NCBI GenBank assembly: GCA_013316825.1
Contig: WSLY01000004.1
Coordinates: 1 to 64,000 of the forward strand
From: Lachnospiraceae bacterium
GTDB lineage: Bacteria > Bacillota > Clostridia > Lachnospirales > Lachnospiraceae
DNA: 64,000 bases
Direction of reading: 5' to 3'
Positions 4,166 through 34,048 of this stretch are shown here, one piece after another. The stretch's first letter is position 1. The number at the start of each line of letters is the position of its first letter. A program made the position numbers and the translations under genes. The notes beneath the pieces are model-generated. The model did not search any database and was not told the DNA's origin. It was given only the letters and a program-made list of their open reading frames with translations.

Positions 4166-4303
4166 GATTTGGGATTGACTTTTGGGCGTTCTTATGGTAA
4201 CATATAAAGCGTTCGTAAGCGAATCCTGCGAAAATAGGGATTTAATCCTACGAATGTATGCAATATGTCCAGCATTTATCGGACTTTACGAGGTCTGCTC
4301 TGG

Positions 4304-4365
4304 CAGTTGGTAGAGCAGAGGACTGAAAATCCTCGTGTCACTGGTTCGATTCCGGTTCTGGGCAT
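4304..4365 (+). repeat. Right copy of 62-bp direct repeat (truncated tRNA-Phe)
   Basis: Identical to 119-180 but lacks the tRNA 5' acceptor strand. Confidence 0.85.
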
Positions 4366-4642: not shown

Positions 4643-5803
4643 CTAAGAAATTTTTTCACGGCTGCAGCCACGCTCCATGCCTGGCCGTATGCCGGACAGT
4701 TTGGCTTTCGTATCCTCCCTTTCTTCATCGAGCTGCGCATACACCCGCAGTATCATCTTTTCATCAGCATGCCCCATCAGTTCAACCGCTTTCTTCAGAG
4801 TGATTCCCGAATAGTATAAAATGGTCGCGTAGTTATACCGGAATACGCGGGAAGTAAGTCCGGATATCGGCTCCGGCACGCTGTCTGTGGCAACTGCGGC
4901 ATTCAGCGCTTTTACGATTCGCTTCCAGACGACGTAAAAATATGATTTGCTGTAGGGCTGTCCCTTGTTGGCAAACAAAAAAGCATTGTCAGCCTCAGAA
5001 AGCTCTTTTTTGATGTGCAGGGTATAAAACCTTACCTCCTCGATTAAAAAGGCGGGAATGGGTATCCGGCGGAAGCCTGAGGGGGATTTTGGTATATTTT
5101 TAAGGACGGGCTGGTTATTCTGGAAGATAATTACATGGTGGATAACCAGCTCCTCTGCCGGCAGGTCTATATCCTGCACCTGCAGGGCAAGAAGTTCTTC
5201 CAGACGCAGCCCGCAGCCGAAGAGCAGCATGACAAGCAAATGTTCCTGCGGCGGCAGGACGGCGCGGTTCAGCGCCTGTTCTTCCAGAGAGGTAAGGATT
5301 CGGCGTTTTGGTGGGGTATACTTGGGCATTTCTACCCGGTGCCACGGGGTATCCTGTATGTAATGGTCCTCCACGGCAGAGGAAAGTATCTGCTTTAAGA
5401 CAATCTTAATTTGCTGGCAGGTGCGCGGGTGGTCGGCATGCTCATTGATGAGCGCCTGTATGTCCGTCCGTTTAATGTCCGGCAGCAGCCATGTACCGAA
5501 CTGCGGAAGGAGGTACGTGTCCAGTATGGTGCGGTACATGCGCTGCGTGTTGTATTCCCTTGTGGACTTGTAGAGGGACACGAAGGTTTCTGCATATTCC
5601 TCAAAGGTGGTTTTCTTTCCAGCAATGTATTTCCCTGTTTTAATCTGGGCTTTCATGGCGTCTACTTTTTCTTCCAATTCCCTGCTGGTGCTGCCATACA
5701 TGGGTATCCTGACAGGTCTGCCGTAATCATCATATTCCCCTGTGTTTACCAGCGTGTAATAGCGTCCGTCTTTCCTTGGTTTGTAGCGGTTTTTTCTAGG
5801 CAT
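4643..5803 (-). CDS. Site-specific tyrosine recombinase (phage integrase)
   Basis: SAM-like core-binding domain and catalytic motifs (GLRLEELLAL, MGHADEKMILRVYAQ); RBS aggagg before MPRKNRY. Confidence 0.95.
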   Translation of the reverse strand: MPRKNRYKPRKDGRYYTLVNTGEYDDYGRPVRIPMYGSTSRELEEKVDAMKAQIKTGKYIAGKKTTFEEYAETFVSLYKSTREYNTQRMYRTILDTYLLPQFGTWLLPDIKRTDIQALINEHADHPRTCQQIKIVLKQILSSAVEDHYIQDTPWHRVEMPKYTPPKRRILTSLEEQALNRAVLPPQEHLLVMLLFGCGLRLEELLALQVQDIDLPAEELVIHHVIIFQNNQPVLKNIPKSPSGFRRIPIPAFLIEEVRFYTLHIKKELSEADNAFLFANKGQPYSKSYFYVVWKRIVKALNAAVATDSVPEPISGLTSRVFRYNYATILYYSGITLKKAVELMGHADEKMILRVYAQLDEEREDTKAKLSGIRPGMERGCSREKIS

Positions 5804-5956
5804 TGTATCGTCCTCCTGTGGGTACCATTCCGGCGACATTACCGCAATGGTGTAATTTTGGGCATAAAAATGCCCGGTAAATGCTTGCGGCTTACCGGGA
5901 AAGATGATACAATATGCTTGTGTTTGGCGTGTATCATCTTTTGGTGTACCGCTTTG

Positions 5957-5988
5957 CTGCTCCGGTTGACGCCGGGGCAGTTTTTTTA
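5957..5988 (+). terminator. Putative intrinsic terminator, + strand
   Basis: TGCTCCGG-TTGACG-CCGGGGCA followed by GTTTTTTT. Confidence 0.5.
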
Positions 5989-6690
5989 TTTACTTTGATT
6001 TAATTTATTCATATATCCAGCTGTGATAATGCCGGTAGGCAATGCAACTATGGCAATTCCCATAAAAGACGACATCATGCTTACAATACGTCCAAAGTCA
6101 CTTTTAGGGTAAATATCCCCATATCCGACAGTGGTTAATGTTACCACTGCCCAATAGATAGCGTCAAAAAAGGTTTCAAAACTGTCTGGCTCTACCTGAA
6201 ACATTATTAAAGCCGAACAGAGAATGTATCCGCCAGCCAAAACACATACAGCCATAAGAGCACGGCGTTCTTCCCGTACAACAGAAATAATTAGATTGAA
6301 GCTTTTTGAATAACGGAACAACTTTAAAACCTTAAACGCCCTGCTTAGCCGGAAAAGTTTTAGCAATTTAAATCCCGAATTAAGAACTGTAACGGATGAC
6401 ATAATGGATAATATATCAATAATAGCATAAATACTAAAAGGATATTTTAAAAAGGCAAATTTTCCGCTTTTTGGAAATTTAAAGTCAGCGGTCAGCCATC
6501 GGCACACATAGTCGATAATAAAAATAGTTACTGTGATACGCTCTATCCAAACAAAAAATATATTTGTCTGTTTGAAACATAAAGGTAATATGCTACAGAT
6601 AATACATATAAGCATAAAACGGTCATAGCATAGGCTTAAATTGTCATCTGGTTCAGCTAATTCTATTATTTGATATATTTTTTTTCTCAT
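5986..6690 (-). CDS. Voltage-gated potassium channel (6-TM)
   Basis: Selectivity filter TLTTVGYGD, S4-like RLSRAFKVLKLFRYSKS, about six hydrophobic segments. Confidence 0.93.
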   Translation of the reverse strand: MRKKIYQIIELAEPDDNLSLCYDRFMLICIICSILPLCFKQTNIFFVWIERITVTIFIIDYVCRWLTADFKFPKSGKFAFLKYPFSIYAIIDILSIMSSVTVLNSGFKLLKLFRLSRAFKVLKLFRYSKSFNLIISVVREERRALMAVCVLAGGYILCSALIMFQVEPDSFETFFDAIYWAVVTLTTVGYGDIYPKSDFGRIVSMMSSFMGIAIVALPTGIITAGYMNKLNQSK

Positions 6691-6714: not shown

Positions 6715-7344
6715 TTAAAACTTACCCCGTAGTTCAACTACTTTCCCTATAATTTTAACAGGTTTAGAAGATATATCCTCGTTGCTGAAAAACATTGGGG
6801 CATAGGCTGGGTTATTAGACACCAGTTCTATTCCGTCCCGATATTTCCTGAGTCGCTTGCAGGTAGCGTCGTCACCGTTTACCATGGCAATTACGATATC
6901 ACCAGATTCTGCGTCCTCTTGCTGCCGAACGATAACCACATCGCCCTCGCACATACGGGGTTCCATGGAATTGCCTTTTATCTGTAGTCCAAAGTATGTA
7001 CCAGTGGAAGCCATTTCCTGCGTGATTTCCTCAGTATCAATTACCTCTTCTACTGCTTCTATGGGAATTCCAGCGGCTACACGTCCAAGAACATTAATAA
7101 TAACACCTTGCTTTGTAATTCTATTAGGCTTGTCTTCTAATAAATCAGATTTGTTCACCCCAAAATAATCAGCTAGTAATTGTATTTTTCCTATTCGTGG
7201 AAGTTTTTGTCCTGTACACCAACTTGATACGGTGGAAGAACCTAGGTTTAAATCATTCATGAGGTCCATCTGATTTTTATTATTTAATTCCATGTAATAT
7301 TTCAATTTTTTTGCAAAGATAGCTTTATATCTTTCATCTGACAT
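6715..7344 (-). CDS. CI-like repressor (XRE HTH + S24/LexA-like peptidase)
   Basis: N-terminal HTH (NQMDLMNDLNLGSSTVSSWCTG) and S24 signature (LQIKGNSMEPRMCEGDVVIV). Confidence 0.93.
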   Translation of the reverse strand: MSDERYKAIFAKKLKYYMELNNKNQMDLMNDLNLGSSTVSSWCTGQKLPRIGKIQLLADYFGVNKSDLLEDKPNRITKQGVIINVLGRVAAGIPIEAVEEVIDTEEITQEMASTGTYFGLQIKGNSMEPRMCEGDVVIVRQQEDAESGDIVIAMVNGDDATCKRLRKYRDGIELVSNNPAYAPMFFSNEDISSKPVKIIGKVVELRGKF

Positions 7345-7493: not shown

Positions 7494-7703
7494 ATGAATG
7501 AATTAAAGATTTCTTTGGCAGCAGCAAGAGTAAATGCAAGAATGACACAAAGCCAAGTGGCAGAAAAAATGCACGTAGGAAAGCAAACAGTTGTTAGATG
7601 GGAAAATGGAAAAGCTGAACCGAAGACATCACAGGCAATAGAGTTATGTAAACTATATAATATACCGCTTGATAATATTTTTTTGCCTATAATTCCCACT
7701 TAA
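7494..7703 (+). CDS. Cro-like XRE-family regulator
   Basis: HTH ARMTQSQVAEKMHVGKQTVVRWENGKAEP; divergent from CI. Confidence 0.9.
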   Translation: MNELKISLAAARVNARMTQSQVAEKMHVGKQTVVRWENGKAEPKTSQAIELCKLYNIPLDNIFLPIIPT

Positions 7704-8301: not shown

Positions 8302-8416
8302 AGTGAAATCCCCTCCTTTCTTATGCACTTGGCTGCTGCAACAGCCTGTAGCGACATTATAAGGGAAAGGGATTACAAAAGCAATAGCCGCATGAAGATG
8401 TATTACAAAAGCGATT

Positions 8417-8521
8417 CTGCCATACTTTCTGCTCGGCACACAGGTGCCGCAGTACATTCCTATTTGCCCAAAGGCGCGCAGATACCCCCTTAGTCTGCGT
8501 GCCGCGCAGAGGGCATGGCAG
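8417..8521 (+). ncRNA. Structured element copy 1 (candidate cis-regulatory RNA or palindromic repeat)
   Basis: Outer stem CTGCCAT..TTCTGC/GCAGAGGGCATGGCAG; hairpin CGGCAC-ACAG-GTGCCG; hairpin GGCGCGCAGA-loop-TCTGCGTGCC. Confidence 0.6.
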
Positions 8522-8544
8522 AAAAACAGGAAAGGAAGGGGCAT

Positions 8545-8733
8545 ATGGAATATCCAAAACCAATAATGACTATTTCCGAGTTACAGGAAATGGGCTATCC
8601 GAGGGAATATCTGCTGAGGGCGTGTCACAGCAAACACGCAGGGAAACTGTGCATACGCACATCACGCAGGGGTAAGTTTCTGATAAAAACGGAAGTGTTT
8701 GAATCTCTGCAGAACAGGGGGTGCCTGAGGTAA
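8545..8733 (+). CDS. Small phage DNA-binding-like protein
   Basis: MEYPKPIMTISELQEMGYPREYLLRACHS...; RBS aggaagggg. Confidence 0.65.
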   Translation: MEYPKPIMTISELQEMGYPREYLLRACHSKHAGKLCIRTSRRGKFLIKTEVFESLQNRGCLR

Positions 8734-10367: not shown

Positions 10368-10402
10368 TCCTCACCGGCAGGAGACGGGCGGCATATCTGC
10401 CG

Positions 10403-10508
10403 CCATGCCTTCCGCGCGGCGCACAGGCGCCGTACACACATACATTTTCCATTTATGAATAAGCGGGCGCAGGTACTCCCTATCCTGCGTGCCGCGCGGA
10501 GGGCATGG
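10403..10508 (+). ncRNA. Structured element copy 2
   Basis: Outer stem CCATGCCTTCCGCGCGGC/GCCGCGCGGAGGGCATGG; hairpin CGGCGC-ACAG-GCGCCG; hairpin GCGCAGG-TACTCCCTAT-CCTGCGT. Confidence 0.6.
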
Positions 10509-10535
10509 AAACAAAACAAGAAGGAGGCATAAAAA

Positions 10536-10925
10536 TTGGAAGAAATCAGGAAAACAGTTGAAGGCACCTGCAGGTGGACGCAGGGCTGGCTGGAGGAAAA
10601 CAGTGTGCGGCTTGACGCCATTGAAGTGTCATGCGTGCTGCTTTCCCTTTCTGCGCTTGTGTCTGCGGCCGGGATAAAACAGGAAATTCCGGAACGCACG
10701 CTGGAGCCGGAGCTGCAGGAGCCGGAGGCACGGCAGGAAAAGGAAGAGCCGCCGAAAAAAAAGCGGAAAATTGACGCGGGGAAAATCCGTGCGCTGCGCA
10801 AAGCAAACTGGACGGTGAAAGCGATCGCGGACGAAATGCAGTGCACCGTTGCCACGGTATACAGGGCGCTCGGGAAAGTGGATGCGGGAAATGAGGCAGA
10901 CAGTGATGACGATGGTACAGCGTGA
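10536..10925 (+). CDS. HTH-containing phage protein
   Basis: TTG start with RBS aaggagg; C-terminal HTH (GKIRALRKANWTVKAIADEMQCTVATVYRALGKV). Confidence 0.75.
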   Translation: MEEIRKTVEGTCRWTQGWLEENSVRLDAIEVSCVLLSLSALVSAAGIKQEIPERTLEPELQEPEARQEKEEPPKKKRKIDAGKIRALRKANWTVKAIADEMQCTVATVYRALGKVDAGNEADSDDDGTA

Positions 10926-33177: not shown

Positions 33178-34048
33178 ACCGGCAGACTATAAGCAGACAG
33201 ACGGAAAATGGGGGAATCTCAAGTATGCCGTCCAGGGCGAGGCAAGCACCATAAAGAGCGCAGGCTGCGGCCCCACGGCGATGGCAGACGTGCTGTCCGC
33301 CATCGAAAGCACGTACACAGACCCTGTTACCTGCGCGGCGTGGGCGCTGCAGCACGGGTACAAGGCAAAGGGCGGCGGCAGCTATTACACCTATCCGGCA
33401 GCGCAGGGGGCGGAGTACGGCGTCACGGTGCGCCGCCTTAATGTGGCAAACATATACGGCAGTGCAGGCTCCGGCGTCCATGCGGAGGCACTTGCGGCAC
33501 TGCAGGCCGGAAACTGGCTTATCGCCTGCATGGGAAAAGGGCTGTGGACAAGCGCGGGACATTACATCGTGGCATACGGGTATAAAGGCGGCATGGTGTA
33601 CATCAATGACCCCGCCAGCAGCAGCGCGGCAAGGGCATGCAGTAAATGGGAGCTGTTTAGGGCGCAGGTAAAATATTACTGGGTCGTGGAAGTGCCGGAA
33701 AACATAAAGGCGGGCTATATAAATACGAGCGGTGATTACCGCCTGCAGGACTTTGTGCGGGAAGTGCAGATGTGCACAGGAGCGAAAATTGATGGAAAGG
33801 CAGGAACGGAAACCCTGTCAAAAAGCGTAACGGTGAGCCGCGGAAAGAACAGCCGCCATCACGTTGTACTGCCTCTGCAGAAAAGGCTCCGGTATCATGG
33901 ATTTTATGAGGGCGGGCTGGACGGTATAGCAGGCCCCCAGTTTGAATCTGCCGTGAACCGGTACCAGACGCAGGTGCTGGGGTATGGAAAGGCGGACGGG
34001 GAGGTAACGGCCGGAAGGACGATGTGGCGGTCCCTGTTAGGATTATAA
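33170..34048 (+). CDS. Endolysin: C39-like peptidase plus C-terminal peptidoglycan-binding domain
   Basis: AGCGPTAMADVLS catalytic Cys, GHYIVAYGY His, QKRLRYHGFYEGGLDGIAGPQFESAVNRYQ. Confidence 0.88.
   Translation: MIKPADYKQTDGKWGNLKYAVQGEASTIKSAGCGPTAMADVLSAIESTYTDPVTCAAWALQHGYKAKGGGSYYTYPAAQGAEYGVTVRRLNVANIYGSAGSGVHAEALAALQAGNWLIACMGKGLWTSAGHYIVAYGYKGGMVYINDPASSSAARACSKWELFRAQVKYYWVVEVPENIKAGYINTSGDYRLQDFVREVQMCTGAKIDGKAGTETLSKSVTVSRGKNSRHHVVLPLQKRLRYHGFYEGGLDGIAGPQFESAVNRYQTQVLGYGKADGEVTAGRTMWRSLLGL

Follow-up and report, generated by a model that had tools for sequence, protein, structure and literature searches.

A conserved structured element between early lytic genes of Lachnospiraceae prophages, a candidate cis-acting RNA with two competing folds

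The RNase III processing sites of phage T7 are structured RNAs lying between early genes, several of the sites having one and the same fold. The element described here resembles them in that it occupies gaps between early genes, in sense orientation and shortly 5' of the next ribosome-binding site, whatever the identity of the gene, and differs in that its cleavage is conjectural and that it is a junction of three helices, with which a conserved rod competes. To our knowledge there is no sequence relation between the two.

Phage HK022 carries two similar put RNAs of ~70 nt that need no phage protein, one of them lying ~270 nt past its promoter (PMC9378689). Like the present element, they are RNAs of a phage early transcript, occurring as two similar copies per phage and restricted to a host lineage, but put folds into two hairpins (PMC9378689), whereas the element has a closing stem of 13-20 bp and two inner hairpins and often lies mid-operon, with few or no clear intrinsic terminators downstream. 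In Firmicutes, the conAn system of pLS20-type plasmids likewise has an RNA component, encoded close to where a mobile-element operon begins, but it requires a protein partner and a terminator-rich operon (PMC8955417), neither of which was found for the element. REP/REPIN and other palindromic repeats are similarly palindromic, intergenic and context-changing (PMC3116915); unlike them, the element has one or two copies, a fixed orientation, a larger branched fold and no tyrosine-transposase partner. Finally, the palindromic candidate structured RNAs from human microbiomes include a palindrome-like structured RNA near phage genes, although a phage-linked palindromic example from that study comes from Bacteroidetes (PMC8040213).

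The window, a DNA stretch of 64,000 nt, is part of a Lachnospiraceae-type genome carrying a prophage, in which two copies of the element are both sense to the early genes:

4643-5839, minus strand, integrase of the prophage
6715-7344, minus strand, CI-like repressor of the prophage
7494-7703, plus strand, Cro-like gene; the early genes on the plus strand come next
8420-8518, plus strand, element copy 1 (type I); covariance model 111.2 bits (R1), 93.6 bits (R2)
8545-8730, plus strand, gene 3' of copy 1; 62 aa, phrog_36464 (function unknown)
10403-10508, plus strand, element copy 2 (type I); covariance model 129.9 bits (R1), 115.8 bits (R2)
10536-10925, plus strand, HTH gene 3' of copy 2; 129 aa, HTH_7-like, a changeable partner of the element

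Copy 2 lies in the 168-nt gap between a phrog_1029 gene and the HTH gene, its end being separated by 27 nt from the TTG start at 10536. As an earlier note on this DNA had observed, it stands just ahead of the ribosome-binding site of the HTH gene, with the Shine-Dalgarno sequence (SD) GGAGG ~13 nt past the element end. Directly 5' of copy 1, at 8371-8417, the direct repeat ATTACAAAAGCRAT is present in two copies ~30 bp apart and is a possible operator. At the integrase side of the prophage, positions 4297-4364 give a weak Rfam tRNA match (33.2 bits) that is not called by ARAGORN, adjoins tRNA-Lys (4384) and the integrase gene, and is possibly an attachment-site tRNA fragment.

Against a null of dinucleotide shuffles, copy 2 (folded as 10403-10515) has a z-score of -6.85, with 0 of 200 shuffles as good, and copy 1 (8405-8525) one of -6.74; the structured element proposed earlier at 10403-10508 was thus recovered, together with its inner helices P2 and P3 and its long outer stem P1, which reaches 20 bp in the rod fold described below. 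The parts of the two copies are as follows:

8420-8432, plus strand, copy 1 P1 5' strand; partner 8506-8518
8434-8449, plus strand, copy 1 P2
8477-8499, plus strand, copy 1 P3
8506-8518, plus strand, copy 1 P1 3' strand
10403-10415, plus strand, copy 2 P1 5' strand; partner 10496-10508, compensatory change in 8 of 13 P1 pairs
10416-10422, plus strand, copy 2 switch segment; partner 10427-10433 (P2, three-way fold) or 10489-10495 (rod fold)
10417-10432, plus strand, copy 2 P2 hairpin CGGCGC-ACAG-GCGCCG; compensatory change in 4 of 6 pairs
10433-10467, plus strand, copy 2 linker; variable, a YUCCYYUUU tract being frequent in the alignment rows
10468-10489, plus strand, copy 2 P3 hairpin CGCAGG-loop-CCTGCG; compensatory change in 5 of 6 pairs
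10489-10495, plus strand, copy 2 switch segment; P3 base (three-way fold) or P1 extension (rod fold)
10496-10508, plus strand, copy 2 P1 3' strand GCGGAGGGCATGG; includes the most conserved sequence, GAGGGCAYGG

The 3' arm of P1 is more conserved than the 5' arm (20.6 vs 17.1 bits), and nearly all members have CCRTG...CAYGG as their ends, with A/G-rich sequence after the closing stem. The two copies are 72% identical, and already between them there are compensatory changes in P1, P2 and P3; such changes, which extend across the family, rule out recent duplication without constraint, an outcome that the note had named as fatal to its proposal. The hairpin GGCGGCA-TATC-TGCCGCC (10387-10404) that it had described as mutually exclusive with the outer stem does exist, but the supposed rivalry was not confirmed: only 10403-10404, the two outermost bases of P1, are shared, and the minimum-energy fold holds both structures together. 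Nor is this hairpin part of the element, as it occurs only in the copy 2 orthologues (L029 and L064) and is absent before copy 1 and the other inspected members.

In a model-guided alignment of 22 members (P1 13 bp, P2 6 bp, P3 6 bp), 95.8% of the cells in the three helices are paired and 17 of the 25 pairs display double compensatory change; 0 of 500 shuffles equalled the observed covariation, and sliding the register abolished the signal. Since fitting the alignment to the model favours the structure, a tree-based null was added, under which 9 of 18 testable pairs were significant (p<0.01; P1 3/9, P2 3/4, P3 3/5) as compared with 0 of 117 background column pairs. Conservation sits in the stems; both the sequence and the length of the loops and linker are variable. 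At the level of the aligned sequences, conservation of a three-helix fold of ~90-110 nt is shown.

On the sense strand, G-U cells number 46 and A-C cells 10, an excess that selection on RNA, or on sense single-stranded DNA, would be expected to produce, the count being partly biased by the retrieval of several members with a sense-strand model or a G-U-tolerant pattern. Together with the constant orientation, this excess favours a function in the transcript, and position and orientation fit the leader or cis RNA suggested by the note; a role as single-stranded DNA is possible. A functional sense-strand RNA element is, in our estimation, very probable.

The second fold is a long rod, in which 10416-10422 pairs with 10489-10495, lengthening P1 to 20 bp and disrupting P2 and the base of P3. 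In the same 22 members, 95% of the cells of the rod are paired and 11 pairs undergo double changes; among the rod-extension pairs, however, only one of three testable was significant on the tree null. When each fold was forced, 18 of 22 members had an energy gap no larger than 2.5 kcal/mol. The rod was preferred by 13 members and the three-way fold by 4, while 5 were tied. The competition between inner hairpin and outer stem noted previously is therefore real and conserved, with covariation in both folds and near-equal energies. Joint retention of both folds would also be expected if P2 and P3 merely share sequence; conserved bistability is supported as a possibility, and it is from these modelled folds that we infer the switch-like behaviour the note had in mind, in which the element may actually pass from one to the other.

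A first covariance model, built from the two window copies, picked up relatives in 8 genomes (the window's own counted) out of 138 from the genus, and a second, built from ten members, found the element in 11 of the 138; five viral contigs also carry it. There are two copies in the window's genome and one or two per genome elsewhere, in prophages or an integrase locus. Among 397 genomes drawn from the family, with sensitivity limited by the scoring of ten candidates per genome, the sole match, apart from the window's own genome, proved to be a false positive in coding sequence. When 84,980 species were scanned with a two-arm pattern, 17 loci came up; ten of them were confirmed by the model, nine carrying the name Lachnospiraceae or Acetatifactor and the tenth from a MAG that shares its sample series with one of those (L064). 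The others were coding or low-scoring chance matches, as were, both being coding, the window match at 33322-33415 and the match L040. Scans for single-arm patterns added no new members, and blastn against phage and plasmid records gave no matches. We infer that the element-bearing genus is GTDB Acetatifactor. No Rfam 15 family matches the elements in the window, and a relaxed search of 11 loci yielded chance-level matches only. The elements make up a covariation-supported and apparently undescribed RNA family, which may overlap with entries in the motif tables of PMC8040213.

All inspected members are sense and fill gaps between co-directional early lytic genes, mostly 8-38 nt past a stop codon and 5-27 nt ahead of a start codon with an SD. 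In these phages cro-like genes lie 5' of the element and replication and recombination genes 3', while its immediate neighbours vary from phage to phage: the gene 3' of it elsewhere encodes a membrane protein, an Xre protein, an excisionase-like protein or a protein of unknown function. In L032, the copy 2 element is retained and the HTH gene is deleted. These arrangements argue against autoregulation by the adjacent DNA-binding-like proteins, as had been envisaged for the HTH product. A phage RNase H gene is no constant partner either, since just 7 of 11 genomes have it on the contig of the element. In L034, the element is an island of homology, with 89% identity limited to the element and other genes on both sides; beside this full copy, a second is a collapsed 26-nt remnant (5729-5754, CCATGCCTTCCGCGCGGAGGACATGG), consistent in sequence with being the exact product of a deletion between the CCGCGCGG repeats in both arms. 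Copy 1 of L032 (L032:7940-8045) has copy-1-like arms and a copy-2-like interior, and this mosaic suggests gene conversion between element copies. In L033, an IS110-family transposase gene (5019-6284) is found ~130 nt beyond a copy-2-like element (6415-6514), whose homology to window copy 2 stops ~12 nt past the element.

We tentatively favour, at somewhat short of even chances, a cis-acting structured RNA of the early lytic (cro-side) transcript in temperate phages of one Lachnospiraceae genus that serves as an intercistronic processing or insulation signal. The element is gene-independent, intercistronic, partly double-stranded and placed 5' of ribosome-binding sites, which is why this reading is preferred, and it would act on the mRNA whatever gene it precedes. 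The 20-bp P1 and the rod would offer a double-stranded substrate to the host's RNase III or to a similar RNA-binding host factor; cleavage would split the polycistronic early mRNA into pieces decaying separately and leave every downstream ribosome-binding site free, and the three-way fold would be a protected or uncut state. A T7-like RNase III site calls for double-stranded RNA some two turns long between cistrons, and P1 with its extension provides 20 bp (95% of cells paired). That host RNase III is itself the enzyme is a guess from anatomy, to which we give roughly one chance in three, and such strong confinement to a single genus sits oddly with so widespread an enzyme. Early-gene regulation in gut phages would gain an RNA family, few RNA elements having been characterised in that group, and the competing folds and independence of neighbours lead to concrete hypotheses of RNA processing, antitermination or translation.

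Antitermination, also raised in the note, would here mean a put-like, RNA-only relief of termination or pausing, in which the nascent RNA binds host RNA polymerase so that the early operon is read through. With one or two sense copies per phage in the early operon after cro-like genes, downstream genes that do not matter and a single host lineage, such an action is possible; as intrinsic terminators inside the operon are a good sign of a processive antitermination system (PMC8955417), it is made less likely by the nine loci in which hardly any clear sense-strand intrinsic terminator lies for kilobases 3' of the element, by the many copies far from a promoter, several of them mid-operon, and by a three-helix fold, closed by a long stem, in place of put's two hairpins. 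Somewhat less likely again is a bistable, protein-free element acting itself on the host transcription or translation machinery, an analogue of put whose two-state junction times the early operon; if true, it would represent, in Clostridia, a new class of phage regulators that do without protein. Control of translation, by alternative folds that alter access to the ribosome-binding site just 3', fares about as poorly: most members end right before an SD, and in L052 P1 itself contains an SD-like GAGGG near the start codon, yet the SD is unpaired and outside the structure in nearly all members and the downstream genes have no common function. A pseudoknot between linker and SD was discarded, as the pairing (-9.1 kcal/mol) was no better than with shuffled (-8.6) or swapped (-8.8) linkers.

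The homology island of L034, the apparent conversion of one copy by another in L032 and the gain and loss of genes immediately 3' of the element would suit a DNA hairpin that is mobile or recombinational, either of REP/MITE type or marking a module boundary, and structured for transposition or gene exchange. We consider this improbable, to about the same degree as the put-like action, given the low copy number, the restriction to prophages or an integrase locus, the constant orientation, and the lack of any visible target duplication or constant nuclease partner; a true REP/MITE repeat would be expected in many dispersed copies in either orientation. The ends of an integron attC site carry a GTTRRRY core and its inverse, whereas those of the element are CCRTG...CAYGG; an intrinsic terminator requires a U-tract right after the stem, where A/G-rich sequence is found; and a riboswitch requires a conserved unpaired ligand-binding core, while loops and linker are variable. 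A rolling-circle origin of an HUH Rep was also rejected, since of the 11 genomes with the element only 3 have REP_ORF2-G2P, and none is seen in the window's genome (~73% complete). Several element-bearing temperate phages do encode this rolling-circle-type Rep (L044:5073-5867, L037:1312-2109, L052:1154-1966, L058:5516-6448), which is unusual beside a lambda-like switch region.

Two further noncoding features were observed in these phages. A second element type of 131-141 nt, TCACGYTYTGTGCGYGG...CACGCAGAGRGCGTGA, stands in tandem ~15-20 nt 3' of the first and directly 5' of the next SD (L036:8262-8392, L044:7108-7238, L045:5284-5414, L047:1564-1704). Related phages that do not carry the element (L007-L011) have another conserved noncoding stretch in the corresponding gap, CCTAAGATTGGTCTCT...AGGAA..., located ~30-110 nt past the phrog_1029 gene and followed by a terminator-like hairpin.
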